Shown here piece by piece: positions 2,481 to 46,848 of a stretch of DNA of 64,000 nucleotides. Position 1 is the stretch's first letter. Each line of letters opens with the position of its first letter. Position numbers and translations under genes: made by a program. Source of the stretch: Olsenella sp. An290 (GTDB lineage Bacteria; Actinomycetota; Coriobacteriia; Coriobacteriales; Atopobiaceae); assembly GCF_002159535.1 (NCBI RefSeq), contig NZ_NFIU01000001.1, positions 186,001 to 250,000 on the forward strand, in the 5' to 3' direction. The notes under the pieces are model-generated. The model was given only the letters and a program-made list of their open reading frames with translations, did no database searches and was not told where the DNA came from.

Positions 2481-2563
2481 GTGCGAGGGGCGTGCGAAGG
2501 GGACAGGCACTTTTGCACGCCCTGCGTGCAAAAGTGCCTGTCCCCTTCGCACGCCCCTCGCAC
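2481..2563. repeat. REPIN-like perfect palindrome, copy 1
   Basis: Two 40-nt arms (2481-2520 and 2524-2563) are exact reverse complements around a 3-nt loop CCT. The arm carries the word GGGGACAGGCACTTTTGCACGC, shared in diverged form (GGGACAG-CACTT) with the palindromes at 32175-32246 and 45984-46057. It fills the space between nrdB and the SOS box. No RAYT-type transposase gene is in the window. Confidence 0.85.
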
Positions 2564-9724: not shown

Positions 9725-10545
9725 GCTACCTCATCCTGGAGTGCGCCACGAGCTATGCCGTGGCGCTCGACGACGAGGGCCGCTTCGTGAGGGTCCCCAA
9801 CCTCGGCTACGAGGTGGGACAGGAGGTCGACGATGTCGTCATCTTTGAGGGGAGCCCGTTCGGGGAGGCCGACGTCGTTCCCTTCGAGGCGCGCCGGGCG
9901 AGAAGAACGCGCAGGCGCCGCGCAGCGCTCGTTGCCGCGGCGGCCTGCCTCGCCGTTGCCGTGGTGGCGGGCGCGGCCGTCTGGCAGCTGCCCGTGGGAA
10001 CGGTCTACATGAGCATCAACCCCGAGGTGAGCATCGAGGTCAACCGCCTTGACCGCGTGGTGGGGCTCGACGGCGAGAACAATGACGGCGATGCCCTCAT
10101 CGAGGGGTTCGCATACTACGGGCGGACGCTCGACGAGGTCTCGGACGACCTCGCGGACCGTGCCGAGGAGCGGGGCTATCTCGATGACGGCGGGACGATC
10201 GAGCTCACGGTGGAGTCCGACGACGAGGAGTGGAGGACTGCGACCGAAGACCGGCTGATCGTGGAGCTCGAGGTGCACCTTGACCATCGGGTGGTGGTGA
10301 CGGGCGCCGCCGGTGGCGAGGACGCCGCGCCCGCGCCTCAGGTCGAGCAGGTGACGCCCCCCGAGCCCCCGACTGAGATGACCGTGCCGCCTGCGTTCGA
10401 TGACGACGACCGGGGCGAGGCCGACGACGATGACGGGACCGACGACGATGACGGGACCGACGACGGGGACGACGATGACGACAGCTGGGATGACGACGAT
10501 GACGACAGCTGGGATGACGACGATGACGACGAAGATGACGACTAG
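9721..10545 (+). CDS. RsgI-like membrane anti-sigma factor with Asp-rich extracellular tail
   Basis: A 274-residue protein: a short cytoplasmic RsgI-type domain (about 1-55), basic stretch, one membrane helix (about 67-88), then an extracellular domain opening YMSINPEVSIEVNRL. The N100-P101 bond is where RsgI proteins are known to self-cleave. The last about 50 residues are almost entirely Asp with two DDSWDDDDD units. It overlaps the sigma gene by four bases, so it is expected to bind and restrain that sigma factor and release it on an outside signal. Clostridial RsgI tails are carbohydrate-binding or catalytic; here the tail is acidic, so the signal is unknown. Confidence 0.75.
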   Translation: MSYLILECATSYAVALDDEGRFVRVPNLGYEVGQEVDDVVIFEGSPFGEADVVPFEARRARRTRRRRAALVAAAACLAVAVVAGAAVWQLPVGTVYMSINPEVSIEVNRLDRVVGLDGENNDGDALIEGFAYYGRTLDEVSDDLADRAEERGYLDDGGTIELTVESDDEEWRTATEDRLIVELEVHLDHRVVVTGAAGGEDAAPAPQVEQVTPPEPPTEMTVPPAFDDDDRGEADDDDGTDDDDGTDDGDDDDDSWDDDDDDSWDDDDDDEDDD

Positions 10546-27022: not shown

Positions 27023-30000
27023 ATGAGGAGACGCCTGAAGGGAGTGGTTGCGTTTGCGATGGCGACCCTGATCGCCATGGGCGTGTCGGTTCCGACGGCC
27101 TACGCCGAGTACGCCGGCAAGAAGCCGGAGAACGGCACGACGCAGGAGCAGCCCTTCGCACCCGGCACGGGCGGGAGCACCAACTTCCGCATCCCGGGCA
27201 TCGTCACGCTTGACGATGGCACCATTGTGGCCGCGACGGACGCGCGCTGGAACCACGCGGGTGACGGAGCCGGCCTCGACACCATCGTGAGCGTGTCGAA
27301 GAACGGAGGCGCCGACTGGACCTACACCTTCGCCAACTACCTCGGCGACAACGGCAACACGTACAACAACCAGTCGACGTCCTTTATCGACCCGGCGATC
27401 GCCACGGACGGCACGACGGTCTACCTGGTCGCGGACCTCTTCCCCGCGGGCATCGCCCTCAACACCTCCGTCTCCTCCCCGGTTGCGGGCAAGACCGGCT
27501 TCACGGAGGACGGCTCCGGTCTTCTGCTTCGTGTGAACGGTCACGAGACGATTGACCGCAACTATGGCGCGACGGTCGCCGCCAAGGCCTATGACTACTA
27601 CCTTGACCTTGAGACGTACACGATCCACAAGGTCTCCGACGATTCCGTGGTCGAGGGCTACACGGTCGACCCTTACTTCAACGTCACCGATCCCGAGGGC
27701 AACGAGACCAACCTCTTCTGCGCGGACGCCCCGTTCCAGGTCTATCCGACCGACTACCTCTATCTGACCACCTCCACCGACGGCCTCACCTGGTCCGAGC
27801 CGACGCTCATCAATGCCAAGAAGGCAAACGAGCAGACGCTCCTTGCGGGCCCGGGCAACGGCGTCGTGCTCGATGACGGCACCGTCGTCTTCAGCGTCTA
27901 CGAGTTCACGTCCGGCAAGCAGGAGGCGGGCATCATCTGGTCCACCGATGGCGGCGAGACCTGGCATCGCTCCGCTCCTGTGACCTCCTACGACGGTGGG
28001 CACTGGTCGAGCGAGGCGACGGCGGTCCAGATTGACGACACGACCATCCGCCAGTTCTACCGCGACGGCTTCACCACGCTCTACTACACGGACTACACCA
28101 AGGGGGAGGACGGCACCTGGGTTCCCGGAGAGGCCGTGAACACGGGCCTGACCAAGCGGAACAACAACCAGCTCTCCGCCATCAAGTACAGCGAGCAGAT
28201 CGACGGCAGGGACGTCATCATCGTCTCCACCGCGTCCAACCCCGGCGACCGCAGGGGCGGCAAGCTCTACGTGGGCTTTGTGAACAATGATGCCGAGCAC
28301 ACGATGGACTGGCAGTACGGCTACGCCGTGAACGACTTCGACGACTACTACGCGTACTCCTGCCTCACCGAGCTCAAGGACGGCTCCATCGGCCTGCTCT
28401 ACGAGAAGGCCTCTGCCGCCGAGACCTTCGTGACCATTCCGTTTGACGACCTCATTTCCGATAAGGCCAACCTCGACTACGACCAGCGCTCGGTCGAGCT
28501 CGACGAGGGGGAGAGCGTCACGGTCAACGACCCCTCCGGAGACTACTCCGACACTGACACGAGCTCTCTGAACACCAAGATTGCGACGGTGGAGGTCAAG
28601 GCCGGCGCGCTCAACGCGACCTCTGCGAAGGTCGGCAGCGCCGCGGGCGTCTACGAGGGCTCTTCCGTTGGCCTGGACGACTGCCTCTTCACGTTCACCG
28701 CCGAGGGCGATAACTACATCGTGAGCGGCACGGACGCCGACGGCAACCCCGTCTACCTCGATCCGGGCCAGGGCAGCGCCGGCTACCCGGTCAAGACGAC
28801 GAACGCCCACCAGATCACGGTCTCCGCGGGCGCCGAGGCCGACACCGTCTACCTGCGCGACACCGCTGGCTCCTACCTCTTCTTCTACAAGAACTCCCTG
28901 CAGTTTGACCGCGTGAACGCCCTCTCGCAGGAGTCCTGGAAGAGCTACTGCTCCGCCCTGCTCTACCGTCCCGCCGTGGAGGACGAGGCCTCGAGCGAGG
29001 AGATTCCCGGCTACGTCAAGGTGACCGACTTCGACAACCTTGGCGGCGGCGAGTACCTCATCGCCTTCAAGGCTGACAACGGCAACTACTACCTGCTCTA
29101 TCCCAGCGCCTCCACGGCACACAAGTCCGCTCAGGGCGCGCAGGTTGTCCCCGGCGGCCCCTCGACCGACATCGTCTTCACGGGCGTTGCCCCTGGCAAC
29201 ACGGGCGTGCTCGTCGGCAACACCTACTACGACGTGACCGTCAACAAGGTGTATGACTTTGTCCCCACCGAGGACGTCTCGGTCACGGTGAGCAGCGAGG
29301 TCACCAACGTGACCGCCACCGAGGGCCCCGCCTCGTATGCGAACGACGAGAACGAGAGCACCTTCTGGCACTCCTCGTATACCGCTGCCGGCAGTGCCGA
29401 GGACCTCTGGATCATGCTTGACCTTGGCGAGCAGACCGCCATCGAGGGCCTGCACTACCTCCCGCGCCAGAGCGGCGAGAACGGGACCGTGACCGAGGGC
29501 CGCGTGCAGTACAGCGCTGACGGCGAGAACTGGACGACCGTCGCCGAGGTCTCCTGGCCTGACTACTTTGACAAGTCCTGGCGCATCGTCGAGTTTGAGC
29601 CGGTGACGGCCCGGTACGTCCGCCTGCAGGCCGTGCACACCTACTCGAACAGCGACCCCCAGCACGACGGCTTCATGTCCGCGGCCGAGGTTCGCGTGGT
29701 GAGGTCCGACGAGGTCGTCCCCGTGCCCGAGACGCACACGGCCACGTTTGATGCCAATGGCGGCACCGTCGACGTTTCCTCCATCGAGGTTACGCAGGGC
29801 GAGGCCTACGGCGAGCTGCCCGTGCCCGTCCGCGAGGGCCACGAGTTCCTGGGCTGGTTCCTCGGCGACGACGAGGTGACCTCCGCCACCGTCTTCGGCG
29901 GCACCGGCGACGTGACGCTCGTCGCCAGGTGGGAGCCCATGTCCTTCTCCGCCGCGCTCGACGCCAACGGCGGCGCCGTCGACCCCTCCTCCGTCGAGGT

Positions 30001-30487
30001 CACCTACGGCGAGGCCTACGGCGAGCTGCCCGTGCCCGTCCGCGAGGGCCACGAGTTCCTGGGCTGGTTCCTCGGCGACGACGAGGTGACCTCCGCCACC
30101 GTCTTCGGCGGCACCGGCGACGTGACGCTCGTCGCCAGGTGGGAGAAGAACGAGACCGTGGACCCGGATCAGCCCGGAACCGAGGACCCGGACAAGCCTG
30201 GCACCGAGGATCCCGACCAGCCCGGCACGACCGATCCTGACAAGCCCGGCACCGAGGACCCGGACAAGCCTGGCACGACCGATCCGGACCAGAAGCCCGG
30301 CTCCGACGTCAAGCCTGGCACCGGTTCTGACACCAAGCCTGGTACCGGCACCAGCAAGCCCTCCGGCACCCAGAGCGTGCCCGAGACGGGCGATCCGCTC
30401 TCGCCGACCTCTGTGGTTGCCTACGTTGTCGTGGGCGGCGCCATCCTTGTGGGCGCGGGCATCGTGCTCCGTCGCATGAGGGGCTAG
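27023..30487 (+). CDS. Cell-wall-anchored GH33 sialidase with CBM32 and Listeria-Bacteroides repeats
   Basis: 1154 residues. Signal peptide to about residue 29 (PTAYA). GH33 propeller: FRIPGIV near 54-60 and Asp-boxes SKNGGADWT, STDGLTWSE and STDGGETWH. A CBM32/F5-8C-like domain (about 750-890; ASYANDENESTFWHSSY ... VTARYVRLQAVHTYS) precedes two Flg_new/InlB-B type repeats (ATFDANGG ... EFLGWFLGDDEV ... VTLVARWE), a DPDKPGTE-type Pro/Asp spacer and a VPETG sorting signal with membrane helix and RRMRG. It should release terminal sialic acid from mucins on the cell surface. RBS GGGGAG. Confidence 0.9.
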   Translation: MRRRLKGVVAFAMATLIAMGVSVPTAYAEYAGKKPENGTTQEQPFAPGTGGSTNFRIPGIVTLDDGTIVAATDARWNHAGDGAGLDTIVSVSKNGGADWTYTFANYLGDNGNTYNNQSTSFIDPAIATDGTTVYLVADLFPAGIALNTSVSSPVAGKTGFTEDGSGLLLRVNGHETIDRNYGATVAAKAYDYYLDLETYTIHKVSDDSVVEGYTVDPYFNVTDPEGNETNLFCADAPFQVYPTDYLYLTTSTDGLTWSEPTLINAKKANEQTLLAGPGNGVVLDDGTVVFSVYEFTSGKQEAGIIWSTDGGETWHRSAPVTSYDGGHWSSEATAVQIDDTTIRQFYRDGFTTLYYTDYTKGEDGTWVPGEAVNTGLTKRNNNQLSAIKYSEQIDGRDVIIVSTASNPGDRRGGKLYVGFVNNDAEHTMDWQYGYAVNDFDDYYAYSCLTELKDGSIGLLYEKASAAETFVTIPFDDLISDKANLDYDQRSVELDEGESVTVNDPSGDYSDTDTSSLNTKIATVEVKAGALNATSAKVGSAAGVYEGSSVGLDDCLFTFTAEGDNYIVSGTDADGNPVYLDPGQGSAGYPVKTTNAHQITVSAGAEADTVYLRDTAGSYLFFYKNSLQFDRVNALSQESWKSYCSALLYRPAVEDEASSEEIPGYVKVTDFDNLGGGEYLIAFKADNGNYYLLYPSASTAHKSAQGAQVVPGGPSTDIVFTGVAPGNTGVLVGNTYYDVTVNKVYDFVPTEDVSVTVSSEVTNVTATEGPASYANDENESTFWHSSYTAAGSAEDLWIMLDLGEQTAIEGLHYLPRQSGENGTVTEGRVQYSADGENWTTVAEVSWPDYFDKSWRIVEFEPVTARYVRLQAVHTYSNSDPQHDGFMSAAEVRVVRSDEVVPVPETHTATFDANGGTVDVSSIEVTQGEAYGELPVPVREGHEFLGWFLGDDEVTSATVFGGTGDVTLVARWEPMSFSAALDANGGAVDPSSVEVTYGEAYGELPVPVREGHEFLGWFLGDDEVTSATVFGGTGDVTLVARWEKNETVDPDQPGTEDPDKPGTEDPDQPGTTDPDKPGTEDPDKPGTTDPDQKPGSDVKPGTGSDTKPGTGTSKPSGTQSVPETGDPLSPTSVVAYVVVGGAILVGAGIVLRRMRG
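29799..29935 (+). repeat. 137-bp exact direct repeat, copy 1
   Basis: Identical to 30009-30145 at every base (period 210 bp, 70 codons). Encodes the shared part of the two Flg_new-type repeats in the sialidase. Confidence 0.9.
30009..30145 (+). repeat. 137-bp exact direct repeat, copy 2
   Basis: Second copy of the repeat at 29799-29935. Lack of synonymous differences indicates recent duplication or gene conversion. Confidence 0.9.
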
Positions 30488-30546: not shown

Positions 30547-30681
30547 GTGCCGCGGTGGTCCGGCGACTCGCGGTGCAACCGTCTCTCCCGATGTGTCCCT
30601 AACGGTTTTGTCACGTTGTCGCGCGGCGGCTATCCCACCGTCAACCTTGGGTATGATGCTCACAAGCAGAGGGGAGGGCGT

Positions 30682-32013
30682 ATGCTGGGGCGCGGGGCAA
30701 GGAGGAGCAAGAGACGAAGGCCCCGGCGCCGCGGGGTTCTTCTCGCCCTGCTTGTGACCATTGCGCTGGCAGACACCGCCACGCTTGCCGGCGCCGCGGT
30801 GCTGCACGCCCGGCGCCTCGAGCGCGTCACCGGCACCAACGCCGTTACCGCCCCCACCGTTTCCTCGGAGAGGCGAACGGGCTCCTTTGGAGCGACCCTC
30901 GAGTATGCGGCGCTCTTCTCGCACGACGGTCATCGCGTAACGTCTGATGTGGCCTGGGATGACGCGTGGTTCTTCCAGGACCCGACGGTCTACAACCACG
31001 AGCTCGCGCACACCTGCGCCGTGCTCTCCGCCATCGCCAACGCCGAGAGCGCCTACTACCAGCAGGGCTCAACCGCCCCCGCCTTTGCGGAGCACGCCTT
31101 TGCCGAGCTGGGCTTTGACGAGGTCTGCACGGCGTCCTACCGCTATCGAAGCGAGGTTCTTGACGAGGTCATCGGCGTTCTGGACGGCACTGACGTGGTG
31201 GCCTACACGCTGGCAACCAAGCGCGTGCGCAACCCAGAGACGGGCGCCGAGAAGGAGCTCTTTGTCGTGGTGGTGCGCGGCTCGTACGGCTCGGAGTGGC
31301 TCTCCAACATAAAGATCGAGGGCGCCTCGGGCGTGGCCGGCGCGGAGGGGGATGGGGATCACCTCGGCTTCACGCTGGCCGCCAACGAGATCGTGGCCGA
31401 CCTCGAGGAGCGGGCCGCCGCCCTGGCCCCGGACGTCGAGCGCGCCTACCTCTTCTGCGGGCATAGCAGGGGAGGTGCCGTGGCCAACCTCCTGGCGAGC
31501 TATTCCGATGACATGGCGGACGGGAGCCGGGCGCTGGCCACGGCGGGCGACGTGCGCGCCTACACGTTTGCCACGCCCAACTGCACCTCGTCCGAGACGG
31601 CGCGCGACGCCTCCTACGACAACATCTTCAACCTGCTCAACCCGTCCGACCTTGTTCCCCAGCTGCCGCTCTCCTCGTGGGGCTATGCGCGCTACGGTCG
31701 CGACGTCTGGCTTCCCGGTGCGGGGGACGCCGCGCTTGACGCTCGCTGGGACGCCGTCTGCGCCTCCTATGAGGCGACGATGGGCACCGCGTGCCCCTCC
31801 GACCCAGAGGACCGCGCGGCAGTGTCCGCCTTTGTGCGGGACATCGGCGAGCGCGTCTCTGACTTTGACGAGCTCGTCTCCCCCGGGGGCCTCCTGGAGC
31901 TTGCGGGGGCGTGCATGAGGATTGACCTGCCACGCCTGCTGGCCAGCCACTACCCCAACACCTATATCGCCTGGCTTGACGCCACCACGGAGGATGACCT
32001 CGCGTTTGGTTAG
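30682..32013 (+). CDS. Membrane-anchored or secreted class 3 lipase-like alpha/beta hydrolase
   Basis: 443 residues. A very basic N-terminus followed by a hydrophobic helix (about 18-40) suggests a signal anchor. The nucleophile elbow is CGHSRGGAVANLL with S262; VVVRGSYGSEWLSN supplies an oxyanion-type segment, and NLLNPSDLVPQLPLSSWGY is typical of lipase_3 proteins near the acid residue. Substrate unknown. AGGGGAGGG precedes the ATG at 30682; the frame open to 30547 was not used. Confidence 0.75.
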   Translation: MLGRGARRSKRRRPRRRGVLLALLVTIALADTATLAGAAVLHARRLERVTGTNAVTAPTVSSERRTGSFGATLEYAALFSHDGHRVTSDVAWDDAWFFQDPTVYNHELAHTCAVLSAIANAESAYYQQGSTAPAFAEHAFAELGFDEVCTASYRYRSEVLDEVIGVLDGTDVVAYTLATKRVRNPETGAEKELFVVVVRGSYGSEWLSNIKIEGASGVAGAEGDGDHLGFTLAANEIVADLEERAAALAPDVERAYLFCGHSRGGAVANLLASYSDDMADGSRALATAGDVRAYTFATPNCTSSETARDASYDNIFNLLNPSDLVPQLPLSSWGYARYGRDVWLPGAGDAALDARWDAVCASYEATMGTACPSDPEDRAAVSAFVRDIGERVSDFDELVSPGGLLELAGACMRIDLPRLLASHYPNTYIAWLDATTEDDLAFG

Positions 32014-32049
32014 TCCGGCCCCCGTATCTGTGCTACCATGTCACGCTAG

Positions 32050-32385
32050 GCGATGACGGAGAGGTCTGGGCGTCGCGTTGCCAGCGGACAGAGATGGGGG
32101 TCACCGGCTGAGAGCCCCCTCCAAGGCAGAGGCCCGGAGTTCACTCCACCAGCTGCGACCTGAACGGTCGTGCGGCGTGCGGAAGGGACAGTCACTTTTG
32201 CACGCTTGGGAGGTCACGTGCAAAAGTGACTGTCCCTTCCGCACGCTCAGTAGGGAAGCCGGGGGTCCCACGGCACGGGGCAAGAAGAGGGGGCGCGCGG
32301 GGGAGAAAACCCGTGGCGCCAACCGAGGTGGTACCGCGGATCTTCCGTCCTTGGGCAGCAGACACACTGCCAAAGGGCGGTTTTT
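32050..32385 (+). promoter_or_regulatory. Phe T-box leader of pheS, interrupted by a REPIN-like palindrome
   Basis: The antiterminator T-box AGGTGGTACCGCG is at 32326-32338, followed by a terminator (CCGTCCTTGGGCAG at 32345-32358, its partner ending at 32380, then TTTTT). Upstream stem I shows an ACAGAGATGG S-turn-like segment, GGCTGAGAG distal-loop-like bases and a plausible specifier TTC at 32140-32142 followed by A, matching tRNA-Phe. Uncharged tRNA-Phe would stabilise the antiterminator and switch on pheS-pheT. A 72-nt palindrome sits between stem I and the T-box. Specifier choice is inferred. Confidence 0.85.
32175..32246. repeat. REPIN-like palindrome, copy 2, inside the T-box leader
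   Basis: 30-nt arms (32175-32204 and 32217-32246) are exact reverse complements around a 12-nt loop. Core GGAAGGGACAGTCACTTTTG is shared with copies at 2.5 and 46 kb. Confidence 0.85.
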
Positions 32386-32407
32386 CGTTAGAGAAGGGAT
32401 GTACGCA

Positions 32408-33475
32408 ATGGCAATGTCCGACGACCTCAAGGCCATTGAGGCCCAGGTAGCGGAGGGGCTCACCGCGGCCGAGAGCATGGAGGCCCTCGAGGCCCTGCGC
32501 GTGAGCGTGCTCGGCAAGAAGGGCTCGCTCACCCAGATCATGCGCTCGATGGGCAGCCTCGCCCCCGAGGAGCGCCCCGTCATGGGCCAGCTCGCCAACA
32601 CGGTGCGCGGCAACGTGGACGCCGCGATCAAGGCGCGCCGCGAGGAGCTCTCCGCCGAGCTCCTGGAGCGCAAGATGGCTGCGGACGCCGTGGACGTCAC
32701 GCTGCCGGGACGGCGCCTCTCCCAGGGCACCCAGCACCTGATCAGCCAGATCCGCGAGGAGGTCGAGGACATCTTCTGCGGGCTCGGCTACACCGTCGAG
32801 GACGGCCCCTACGTGGAGACCACCTGGTACAACTTCACCGCGCTCAACGCCCCCGAGGACCACCCCAGCCGCTCGGCCAAGGACACCTTCTACGTGGTCG
32901 ACAACGCCCCCGAGGGCAAGGAGTCCCACGTCCTGGGCGAGTCCGACGTGCTGCTGCGCACCCAGACCTCGGGCGTGCAGGTGCACGTGATGGAGAGCAA
33001 GAAGCCGCCCATCTACATGATCTGCCCGGGCACGGTCTTCCGCCCCGACACCGCCGACGCCAACCACCTGCCGCAGTTCACGCAGGTCGAGGGCCTTGTC
33101 GTGGACGAGGGCATCACCTTCGGCGACTTCAAGGGCACCATGGACTACTTCCTGCGCGAGATCTTCGGCAAAGATCGCGCCACCCGCTACCGCCCGCACT
33201 TCTTCCCCTTCACCGAGCCCTCCTGCGAGGTCGACGTCTCCTGCGGCGTCTGCGGCGGCACGGGCTGCCGCTTCTGCAAGGGCACCGGCTGGCTTGAGAT
33301 TATGGGTGCCGGCATGGTCGACCCCAACGTCTTCGAGTACTGCGACATCGACCCCGAGAAGTACACCGGCTTCGCCTTTGGCATGGGCGTCGAGCGCATC
33401 GCGTGCCTGCGCTACGACCTGCCGGACCTGCGCATGCTCATGACCGGCGACATGCGCTTCCTCCGTCAGTTCTGA
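32408..33475 (+). CDS. pheS: Phenylalanine-tRNA ligase alpha subunit
   Basis: 355 residues: N-terminal coiled region, then class II motifs GTQHLISQIREEVEDIF, FRPDTADANHLPQFTQVEG (motif 2), and FGMGVERIACLRYDLPDLR (motif 3). Charges tRNA-Phe as alpha2beta2 with PheT. Three in-frame ATGs lie at 32399, 32408 and 32414; 32408 has AGAAGGG nine bases upstream. Regulated by the T-box. pheT follows after 164 bases. Confidence 0.95.
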   Translation: MAMSDDLKAIEAQVAEGLTAAESMEALEALRVSVLGKKGSLTQIMRSMGSLAPEERPVMGQLANTVRGNVDAAIKARREELSAELLERKMAADAVDVTLPGRRLSQGTQHLISQIREEVEDIFCGLGYTVEDGPYVETTWYNFTALNAPEDHPSRSAKDTFYVVDNAPEGKESHVLGESDVLLRTQTSGVQVHVMESKKPPIYMICPGTVFRPDTADANHLPQFTQVEGLVVDEGITFGDFKGTMDYFLREIFGKDRATRYRPHFFPFTEPSCEVDVSCGVCGGTGCRFCKGTGWLEIMGAGMVDPNVFEYCDIDPEKYTGFAFGMGVERIACLRYDLPDLRMLMTGDMRFLRQF

Positions 33476-44215: not shown

Positions 44216-44280
44216 CACGCACAGTTCCGTAACTACCTTTCCCATCTGCGGATGTATGAAGTGAAACGGAGCTGTGCGTG
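44216..44280. repeat. Intergenic stem element after tyrS
   Basis: CACGCACAGTTCCGT and ACGGAGCTGTGCGTG (one G-T wobble) enclose a 35-nt loop with CATCTGCGGATGTATG. Same architecture as the 48.1-kb element, whose loop has TATCCGCAGGTAAAA. Confidence 0.65.
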
Positions 44281-44313
44281 TTGTTCTGTAAGGACGGAGG
44301 AGACGGTAAGGCC

Positions 44314-46848
44314 ATGACAAGAAGGACCACGTTCCTTGAGGCCCACGGCGTGCCGGAGCTGCTGGCGCCCGCGGGCGGGCCGGAGCCGTTCAACGCGGCG
44401 CTCGCGGCCGGCGCCGACGCCATCTACTGCGGCCTGGGCAACGACTTCAACGCCCGGCGCGGTGCCAGGAACTTTGACGAGGAGAGCTTCGCCGCCGCGT
44501 GCCGTCGGGCGCACCTGGCCGACGCTCGCGTCTACGTGACCGTGAACGTGGCCGTGTCCACCGAGGAGCTGCCGCGCGTGCTGGGGCTCGTGCGGAGCGC
44601 GTGGCTGCTCGGGGCCGACGCCTTCATCATCCAGGACTGGGGCCTTCTGGCGGAGGTCCGCCGCCGGTGGCCGCAGATAGAGACCCACGTCTCCACGCAG
44701 GCCAACGTGCAGGACGCCCGCGGCGTGGCGTGGTGTCGCGACGTCTGGGGGGCGGACCGCGTGACGCTCTCGCGCGAGCTCTCCCTGGCCGAGATCTCTC
44801 GCATCGCCGAGGAGGGCGTGGAGCTGGAGTGCTTCGGGCACGGGGCGCTCTGCTTCTGCTACTCGGGCGTGTGCCTCATGAGCTCGCTTTCCGGCGGGCG
44901 CTCGGCCAACCGCGGCCTCTGCGCGCAGCCGTGCCGGCTGCCCTACGACCTCGTGGACGAGGACGGCCGCGTGATGGAGATTCCCGGCGTGGCCACGCAG
45001 GGGCTCGTCGAGAAGAACCGCGGGGTCGGCGGCACCCGCCTGCTCTGCCCCAAGGACTACTGCACCGTCGACCATCTCGCCGAGATGCGCGACGCGGGCG
45101 TGGGCTCGGTCAAGGTCGAGGGCCGCATGAAGGCGCCCGACTACGTCTTCTCCGTGATCTCTGCCTACCGCGACGCGATCGACGCGCTTGCCGCGGGCGC
45201 GGACGACCCGGCCGCCGAGGCCGCGCGCCACCGCCGGCTCAAGCGCGCCTTCAACCGCGACTTCACGGACAGCTACCTCTGGGGGCGCTCCGACAACGAC
45301 ATGATGAGCTACGAGCGCTCCAACAACCGCGGGGAGCTTGTGGGTGAGGTCGTGGGGTCGCGCGCGCTCGAGGACGCCGTCGTGCGCCGCGGGGGCGGGC
45401 GCGGCGGTCGCGAGCGGCTGCGTCGGCACACCCGCGCCGACGTCGACGTGCGGCTTGACGCGCCGGTGGGGGAGGGCGACCTCCTGGAGCTGCGCCCCGC
45501 CGACGACCCCACGCAGTTCCTCACCGTCCACGCGCCCGCCGACGCCGCCGCGGGCGAGACGATCTGCTGTCGCGCGGCGCGCCCGATGCCCGCGGGCTCG
45601 CTCGTGCGCGTGATCCGCTCGCAGCGGGCGCTCGACGAGGCGGCGCGCGTGGCGGACCGGGACGTGGTCCGGCGACGGGCCGTGCACGTGCGCGTGACCG
45701 CGCGGCTCGGGGCGCCGTTCGCCGTGGAGCTCACGTGCGCCGATGGCGCCACGACGGCGCGGGCGGAGGGCTTTGTCGTGGAGGCGGCGCGGACCCGCGC
45801 CGTCTCGGAGGCCGACCTCGTGGAGCACGTGGGCCGCATGGGCCAGAGCGCCTTTGAGCCCGTGAGCTTCTCGGTTGAGCTGGACCCGGGCTGCGGCATG
45901 TCCTTCTCGGCCGTGCACCAGGTACGTGCCGAGGCCTGCTCCCGTCTTGAGGAGGCGCTGCTCGCCCCGTACGCGAGCAGGGAGGCGTGCAAAGGGGACA
46001 GTCACTTCTGCACGCCCGTGCCGGCGCGTGCAGAAGTGACTGTCCCCCCTGCACGCCCGTGCGTGTGCGCGCTCGTGGTGACGCCGGCCTGCGCCGAGGC
46101 GGCGCTCGCGGCGGGCGCCGAGCGCGTCTACGCGCCCGCCGACGCGCTCGCGCGCGGCGCGTGGCCCGCCTGCGTCATCCCCTGGCTCGACGAGGTCTGC
46201 CGCGAGGCGGACCACGACCGGCTCGACCCCTGGGTGCGCCTGGGCGAGCCCGTGGCCGTGGGCAACGTCTCCGAGCTCGCGCTCGCCGCCGAGCGAGGCG
46301 CGCTGGCCGAGGTCCGCTCCTGCGTCCCGGTGCACAACGAGGCCTGCCTCGGCGCCCTTGCGGACGCGGGCGCGGCCGGCGTCTGGCTCTCGCCCGAGCT
46401 CACGCTCGAGGAGGTCTGCGCCCTCGCGCGCGCGTCCCGCGTTCCGGTGGGCCTTGCCGTCTTTGGCCGCGAGCGCGTCATGACGAGCGAGCACTGCGTC
46501 CTGCAGGCGCTCGGCCGCTGCCGGCACGACTGCGCCCGGTGCCCCGAGCGCGCCCGGCGGCTTTCCCTGCGCGACATCGACGGCCGCGACCTGCCCGTCC
46601 GCACGGACATAAACGGTCGCTCGCGCATCTGGTCGGCCCACCCGCTTGACGCGACGCCGCAGACGGCCGAGCTCGTGGCGGCCGGCGTGGAGCGTCTGCT
46701 CGTGGACGGCGAGCTCATGGACGAGGGCGAGGTCACCTTTGCGGTGGAGCGCGCCGTCCGTGCCCTCGCGGCCGCCCGCGCCGGCCGGCGCCCGGCCCAG
46801 CGCGTCGCCGGCGCGACCTCCGGTCATCTTTTCGCGGGCATTGGGTAA
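44314..46848 (+). CDS. U32 family peptidase-like protein (RlhA/YrrO-like), carrying an in-frame palindrome
   Basis: 844 residues. N-terminal U32 domain: PELLAPAGGPEPFNAALAAGADAIYCGL and ECFGHGALCFCYSGVCLMSSLSGGRSANRGLCAQPCRLPYDL with the Cys cluster expected to bind Fe-S; C-terminal DUF3656-like region. The E. coli relative RlhA hydroxylates 23S rRNA; others are called collagenases. Residues about 557-581 (CKGDSHFCTP ... AEVTVPPARP) are the translation of a REPIN-like palindrome at 45984-46057 that leaves the frame open. Start at 44314 follows GGAGGAGACGGTAAGG. Confidence 0.8.
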   Translation: MTRRTTFLEAHGVPELLAPAGGPEPFNAALAAGADAIYCGLGNDFNARRGARNFDEESFAAACRRAHLADARVYVTVNVAVSTEELPRVLGLVRSAWLLGADAFIIQDWGLLAEVRRRWPQIETHVSTQANVQDARGVAWCRDVWGADRVTLSRELSLAEISRIAEEGVELECFGHGALCFCYSGVCLMSSLSGGRSANRGLCAQPCRLPYDLVDEDGRVMEIPGVATQGLVEKNRGVGGTRLLCPKDYCTVDHLAEMRDAGVGSVKVEGRMKAPDYVFSVISAYRDAIDALAAGADDPAAEAARHRRLKRAFNRDFTDSYLWGRSDNDMMSYERSNNRGELVGEVVGSRALEDAVVRRGGGRGGRERLRRHTRADVDVRLDAPVGEGDLLELRPADDPTQFLTVHAPADAAAGETICCRAARPMPAGSLVRVIRSQRALDEAARVADRDVVRRRAVHVRVTARLGAPFAVELTCADGATTARAEGFVVEAARTRAVSEADLVEHVGRMGQSAFEPVSFSVELDPGCGMSFSAVHQVRAEACSRLEEALLAPYASREACKGDSHFCTPVPARAEVTVPPARPCVCALVVTPACAEAALAAGAERVYAPADALARGAWPACVIPWLDEVCREADHDRLDPWVRLGEPVAVGNVSELALAAERGALAEVRSCVPVHNEACLGALADAGAAGVWLSPELTLEEVCALARASRVPVGLAVFGRERVMTSEHCVLQALGRCRHDCARCPERARRLSLRDIDGRDLPVRTDINGRSRIWSAHPLDATPQTAELVAAGVERLLVDGELMDEGEVTFAVERAVRALAAARAGRRPAQRVAGATSGHLFAGIG
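45984..46057. repeat. REPIN-like palindrome, copy 3, inside the U32 coding region
   Basis: 32-nt arms (45984-46015 and 46026-46057) pair at 30 of 32 positions around a 10-nt loop. Core GGGGACAGTCACTTCTGCAC matches copies 1 and 2. Confidence 0.85.

Follow-up and report, generated by a model that had tools for sequence, protein, structure and literature searches.

The DNA analysed here (the window) is a stretch of 64,000 nucleotides of Olsenella sp. An290, in which the gene pheS, encoding the alpha chain of PheRS according to its Pfam domains (PheRS core and N-terminal domain), is preceded by a T-box leader that carries a palindrome dimer. The features of this region, together with two further dimers of the same family, are collected in Table 1. 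Directly upstream of the leader lies an ORF for a class 3 lipase (30547-32013). The stretch 27023-30487 is occupied by a large BNR-repeat (sialidase-like) ORF with an F5/8 type C domain and two Listeria-Bacteroides repeats, the C-terminus of which looks by eye like that of a sortase-anchored surface protein.

Table 1. Coordinates of the pheS leader, its palindrome dimer and related elements (positions in the window unless otherwise given).
Feature	Position	Strand	Basis or remark
pheS T-box leader, stem I to terminator	32049..32389	+	motifs, coordinates, RF00230; ends approximate
Specifier loop GGAGTTCACTCC, TTC (Phe) at 32140-32142	32136..32147	+	sequence; specifier reading putative
Stem II 5' strand ACCT-GAA, S-turn GAA at 32162-32164	32158..32164	+	RF00230 stem II consensus; conserved in relatives
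Flank GGTCGTGCG	32166..32174	+	predicted pairing with GCGACC, competing with stem II
REPIN-like dimer of a TIR/REP-type palindrome	32175..32246	.	inverted repeat, genome-wide family
Left arm of the dimer	32175..32204	+	inverted repeat
Right arm of the dimer	32217..32246	-	inverted repeat
Stem II 3' strand AGTA-GGG (S-turn; AGTA at 32249-32252)	32249..32255	+	sequence, relatives
Stem IIA/B-like element	32258..32281	+	sequence; putative assignment
T-box sequence AGGTGGTACCGCGG (antiterminator)	32326..32339	+	sequence
Exact GGTGGTACCGCG match	G000:C1:218327		supports the T-box sequence of the pheS leader
Terminator hairpin and T-run	32345..32385	+	sequence
pheS	32408..33475	+	Pfam tRNA-synt_2d 315 bits, Phe_tRNA-synt_N 89.7 bits
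Second dimer of the pheS-leader repeat family	2490..2554	.	core matches, dimer reading
Third dimer of the pheS-leader repeat family	45985..46056	.	in peptidase U32 ORF

Ahead of the aminoacyl-tRNA synthetase gene pheS, the leader has a T-box sequence and a terminator that competes with it, as is characteristic of a T-box, and both S-turn strands of stem II (GAA and AGUA) are recognizable in it by sequence, with their folding being unfavourable in the model used below. The Rfam model RF00230 matched the window leader over its positions 154-216 with 25.7 bits, which does not reach the gathering score of 93 bits. In a relative without the repeat (L046), the full model was matched, with only 24.1 bits. 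Since a repeat-free leader also scores this low, RF00230 is weak for the clade, and the low score is not merely an effect of the insert; because the gathering score was not reached, the T-box assignment rests on motifs and position. A search of the own genome with GGTGGTACCGCG gave 14 + 11 matches versus 57 + 48 for the reversed control; 14 of these 25 matches were re-found by script and, by eye, the sole T-box among these 14 was that of pheS.

The alignment of RF00230 to L046 gives the stem II consensus as CCC-GAA...AGUA-GGG. The corresponding strands of the window are CCT-GAA, with its last base at 32164, and AGTA-GGG, with its first at 32249; the 84 nt between them therefore constitute the terminal loop of stem II. 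The dimer, consisting of two arms of 30 nt that are 100% complementary and separated by a 12-nt spacer, is located in this loop, above the S-turn. The earlier note on this DNA, which had described a 30-bp perfect palindrome in a variable linker of the T-box, was thus right about the palindrome and about its lying inside a leader that has its T-box motifs; the free linker has to be given up, since the GAA and AGUA strands bracket the element as a stem II loop. In its specifier, S-turn strands, IIA/B-like element, T-box sequence and terminator the leader resembles class I T-boxes with a stem II, from which it differs in that the 84-nt loop is largely a mobile repeat, whereas the RF00230 consensus loop has a few nucleotides. 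Two other identities of the palindrome were rejected: an intrinsic terminator, as no T-run follows either arm in the sequence, and a miRNA, as the Rfam matches (mir-548 and others) were all far below gathering and are to be expected of any long perfect hairpin.

The repeat family and its class

The core GGGACAGTCACTTTTGCAC, searched for with up to 3 mismatches, gave 6 matches in the window, forming three inverted pairs, with 0 expected from 100 shuffles; in the own genome, the core gave 63 + 62 arm matches and the reversed control 0. The dimer at 45985-46056 is in frame within the peptidase U32 ORF (44278-46848) and is translated as ACKGDSHFCTPVPARAEVTVPPARP. From 15 dimers (those in the window and at loci L001-L032) we obtained the unit consensus GCGTGCAAAGGGGACAGTCACTTTTGCACGC, which contains GGGGACAG. 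Where both arms of a dimer depart from this consensus, the change was identical in the two arms in 21 of 21 cases, compared with a mean of 4.9 and a maximum of 13 in 1000 arm-shuffled controls; departures in one arm only were found at 12 positions. As the arms are matched across the whole genome, paired arm changes are no evidence of selection by the T-box, and compensatory changes were discarded as proof of RNA selection or T-box function.

Two inverted palindromes with a short spacer, present in many copies in a genome that also has a RAYT-like Y1 gene, are traits that this family shares with REPINs and with the GTAG REPs that accompany RAYTs. The name REPIN-like, given to the palindrome in the earlier note, is appropriate. 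However, GTAG or GTGG at the hairpin foot, a defining feature of GTAG REPs, was found at 0 of the 30 feet of the 15 dimers, so the name does not hold for the GTAG type, and the element fits TIR/TIRYT instead.

According to the accessible parts of the respective papers, TIR repeats (TIRtrons/TIRYT) carry the motif GGGGWSAS and flank TIRYT genes (Di Nocera et al. 2013, PMC3733652), and TIRYT corresponds to subclass 2.1 of TnpA-Y1 (PMC6006769). The family core GGGGACAG fits this motif, the pheS copy in the window (AGGGACAG) being one base off; in addition, the palindromes flank Y1 genes and occur as singles, dimers and groups. Two differences should be mentioned: the examples in the published text accessible to us are from outside Atopobiaceae, with none in a riboswitch, and here the repeat reaches high numbers, as the core AAGGGACWGTCCCTT was detected in 28 of the 31 genomes of the genus with up to 105 sites in one genome (control 0-2).

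Genes for Y1 transposases were found in 28 of the 31 genomes; the own genome carries two (Y1_Tnp, with the products P0001 and P0002). The gene of P0001 (L001:1462-2286) has palindromes of the pheS-leader family on both sides, at 1384 and at 2288-2296, which is the arrangement typical of TIRYT. Similarly, CTTGAC palindromes lie on either side of a Y1 gene of G001, and TGATAC palindromes accompany a Y1 gene of G011. Both Y1 proteins of the own genome scored just below the cut-off of 80 bits of NCBIfam REP_Tyr_transpos (77.5 and 79.8 bits), and a search for a C-terminal HTH gave weak matches in P0001 (E 0.05-1.5) and none in P0002. On sequence grounds, the repeat family appears to fit the TIR/TIRYT class, with the architecture of a REPIN. 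In G001, G016 and G017, a further family (TGTxAATTGGGGACAGTCCCCAATTxACA) is very abundant, often as dimers about 40 nt apart, and flanks Y1 genes.

No report of a REP, REPIN or TIR repeat inside a T-box was found in the accessible texts of the open PMC literature. The nearest report that we found concerns the BOX elements of S. pneumoniae, a MITE which, in the available part of that paper, carries potential T-box motifs (PMC10969869); the relation is the reverse of ours, as the BOX repeat contains a T-box-like motif and here the T-box contains the repeat. What we describe appears to be a new combination of known parts.

The stem II loop in related leaders

Among the 31 genomes of the genus, 30 have a readable pheS leader (in G026 the contig starts inside pheS), and the nearest named relatives of the own genome belong to Thermophilibacter/Olsenella, with 94% pheS identity. 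The stem II loop of these 30 leaders holds a dimer in 5 cases, a single palindrome in 12, a decayed palindrome in 3 (G009, G010 and G012) and no repeat in 10; by script, 17 loops were assigned to the core, 3 to the decayed and 9 to the repeat-free state, and the loop of G005 was judged repeat-free by eye. At least seven repeat types are represented. The alleles without a repeat present a different, short hairpin of non-repeat sequence in the loop, and in many relatives the stem II loop measures no more than 23-38 nt. Nearly every leader, within the genus and beyond it, has a stem at the place of stem II. The search was extended to 71 named loci, 44 of them outside the genus, of which 39 had a T-box motif within 480 nt of pheS; in these 39 leaders from other genera the repeat core, tested as exact GGGACAG/CTGTCCC only, was found in stem II in 0 cases, and two loci had the core about 300 nt further upstream. 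The leader L040 (G020) has an 88-nt stem II loop with a long insert that is outside the GGGACAG family.

The comparison of sister leaders had been proposed in the earlier note as the means to distinguish an insertion from an intrinsic T-box part, the latter being indicated by the same stem at the same place with compensatory changes. The hairpins are indeed at the same place, but they belong to several mobile families; since these occupy an intrinsic stem in sister species, the choice between insertion and intrinsic part fails as an either/or test.

In five genomes, the type in the pheS loop was compared with the types elsewhere in the same genome (the search also covered G012, G019, G022, G025 and G030, which are not among the matches listed). 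Among the matches listed, the CTTGAC type is common in G001 and the TGATAC type in G011 and G016, in each case the type of the pheS loop, and the TGATGA type of the G017 pheS loop was found elsewhere as well. In G003, too, the palindrome of the pheS loop is of a type that has other copies in the genome: the 18 fetched sites outside pheS are mostly ATGATACGAAGGGACWGTCCCTTCGTATCAT and the pheS loop has ATGATACGAAGGGACTGTCCCTTTGTCTCAT.

With respect to the dimers, four of the five leaders (the own one, L035, L048 and L089) have the flank GGTCGTGCG in common and similar loops, which points to one origin or to transfer, and not to separate insertions. The dimer of L033 is preceded by GGCGC, as in the repeat-free alleles, and has a different loop; from its sequence, it looks like a separate event. 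An exact pair of empty and filled sites with a target duplication was not found among the genus leaders compared.

The turnover of the loop was evaluated on a tree of 42 rows of pheS-pheT DNA, 18 of whose 39 inner branches are open. On this tree, the eight loop states require at least 14 changes, the least possible being 7. The presence or absence of a repeat requires 6 changes, and the 20 carriers alone require 9 changes of type. On an earlier quick tree of 39 rows (without G005, G021 and G028), 12 type changes and 5 presence changes were needed. The two tree runs placed L033, L035 and the window differently.

Repeats near pheS and in the ileS leader

In the 26 named loci of the genus, 0 repeats were found in the 2 kb upstream of pheS outside the loop and 13 of 26 loci had one in the loop, as counted by strict matching and with three loops lacking an anchor. 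The neighbourhood of pheS in 25 genomes, 968 kb in total, contained 46 repeat loci; the stem II site was the most shared of them (14 genomes), followed by a site shared by 7 genomes, which also holds several repeat types.

A second recurrent site was observed in the leader of ileS, which was located through RF00230; there the repeat lies between the T-box terminator and the ribosome-binding site (G000:C12, L184 and L210-L239). Of 28 readable leaders, 13 carried it according to the script and 16 by eye (17 including a decayed one), and several types were found. The stem II of ileS was free of repeats in all 28 readable leaders, which led us to reject the idea that repeats generally target the stem II of T-boxes. 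Since other shared intergenic sites and the ileS leader show turnover as well, the observations contain nothing peculiar to T-box stem II: the replacement of repeats at fixed sites occurs generally in the genus, and in the neighbourhood of pheS the stem II of this gene is the site most often occupied.

The types at pheS and ileS, assigned by hand, agree in 8 of 14 genomes, an agreement reached in 0 of 100,000 permutations in a calculation uncorrected for kinship. Furthermore, G022 has an unusual GGGGTCTGTCCCC core at both pheS and ileS.

Predicted folding and competing explanations

Folding was predicted with a thermodynamic model without terms for the S-turn, the pseudoknot or the tRNA. In the window leader, the nucleotides of the insert are predicted to pair inside the insert with a value of 0.900 and outside it with 0.0009, which bears out the self-contained folding claimed in the earlier note. 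The pairing of the remaining leader overlaps that of the insert-free leader by 0.824, compared with a mean of 0.634 for 30 shuffled inserts (sd 0.091, max 0.843), at least one of which preserved the remaining fold equally well (0.843 vs 0.824). When stem II was forced to form, the 12 leaders with a single palindrome had a mean cost of 0.09 kcal/mol (0.0 in 11 of them, 1.1 in one); the cost was 0.0 in the three leaders with decayed palindromes, 0.0-3.2 kcal/mol (mean 1.28) in nine repeat-free leaders and 1.8-8.3 kcal/mol in the five dimer leaders. The highest value, 8.3 kcal/mol, is that of the window leader, likely because its flank GGTCGTGCG pairs with GCGACC before GAA. In this model, single palindromes look like good distal parts of stem II and the window's own leader looks like a doubtful case.

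In our view, the element at 32175-32246 is probably a mobile but non-autonomous dimer of palindromes of the TIR/TIRYT class, which has a core of the GGGGACAG kind and occupies the loop of pheS stem II. The most likely explanation for the whole is a mobile repeat at a recurrently occupied site of the T-box, tolerated there as the distal part of stem II. A transposase activity of the Y1 type would bring in the palindrome or its relatives. The accessible part of one paper states that the S-turn of stem II contacts the codon-anticodon duplex and that stem II is variable among T-boxes (PMC7583486). The loop could accept palindromes if the S-turn contact does not depend on its outer end, because the S-turn below would do the tRNA work and the end of the loop would merely close the helix. 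Single palindromes would then serve as a ready-made distal stem II, and one family may succeed another over time, either through fresh insertions or through sequence copied from family members elsewhere in the genome. In the window leader, the dimer is predicted to fold alone, and its flank may compete with stem II.

That the hairpin is an intrinsic stem II of the T-box that came to resemble a repeat by convergence seems scarcely credible. Such an origin would suit the presence of a stem at this place in nearly all leaders, beyond the genus too, and the published variability of stem II, but the same arm sequence is found 63 + 62 times in the genome and different species have their own repeat types in the loop. 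As far as the sequences go, an intrinsic origin is refuted for the sequence itself, and the slot alone is intrinsic. We also find it unlikely that the pattern derives from a single ancient insertion in the ancestor of the genus, followed by vertical descent with losses and by hairpin-templated repair that kept the arms matched, with no re-insertion or copying. The few changes of presence and absence (only 6), the small distance of a few bases between types such as TGATAC, TGATGA and CTTGAC, the genome-wide homogenisation of the arms and the flank and loop common to four dimers would all be in agreement with it. Against this speak the agreement of types between pheS and ileS (with the permutation result given above, uncorrected for kinship), the unusual core of G022 at both genes and the 9 changes of type that the carriers alone require.

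If a mobile repeat occupies the loop, its consequences for pheS have to be considered. It is possible, though we are inclined to doubt it, that the dimer altered or damaged the regulation of pheS, either because the pairing of GGTCGTGCG with GCGACC hides the GAA of the S-turn or because RNase III, an enzyme that cuts long duplexes, cleaves the 30-bp stem. The forced stem II cost of the dimers, and of the window in particular, in comparison with single-palindrome and repeat-free leaders, is in line with such damage; however, this cost comes from a model without S-turn, pseudoknot and tRNA, the remaining T-box motifs are all present in the window leader, and the flanking T-box sequence is kept in 5 of 5 dimer leaders. 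Another proposal, that the extra 72-94 nt act as a transcription timer or pause, giving the tRNA a longer time to bind before the terminator forms, appears improbable to us: the insert does lie between stem I and the antiterminator with a self-contained fold, but many relatives manage with the short loops of 23-38 nt described above.

Returning to the reading of a mobile repeat tolerated as distal stem II, we tentatively propose, with a good deal of reserve, that this distal part is a docking slot, refilled repeatedly by the current palindrome family of each lineage while the shape of the RNA is kept. If this is true, selfish DNA supplies, renews and exchanges the sequence of a riboswitch part, and docks in the leaders of aminoacyl-tRNA synthetase genes would account for some unexplained T-box insertions. 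The data suggest that parts of riboswitches can be made, and remade, out of mobile repeats. The palindromes of the stem II loop reveal, down to the single base and across 30 related leaders, one source of T-box diversity, and they show how selfish repeats of this kind can maintain themselves within the leader of a gene for an aminoacyl-tRNA synthetase. Moreover, as these leaders form a natural set that differs largely in the stem II loop, the need for the distal stem II in tRNA sensing can be tested with them.

Finally, the 10-mer CGAGAAGAAC, often as GGCGAGAAGAACG, was observed 19 times in the window (for instance at 9899, 25460, 47160 and 62191), against an expectation of 1.3 under an order-3 Markov model (20 draws, maximum 4). 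It is also present in the stem II loops of repeat-free pheS leaders and in those of many ileS leaders, and could be an uptake- or Chi-like word.
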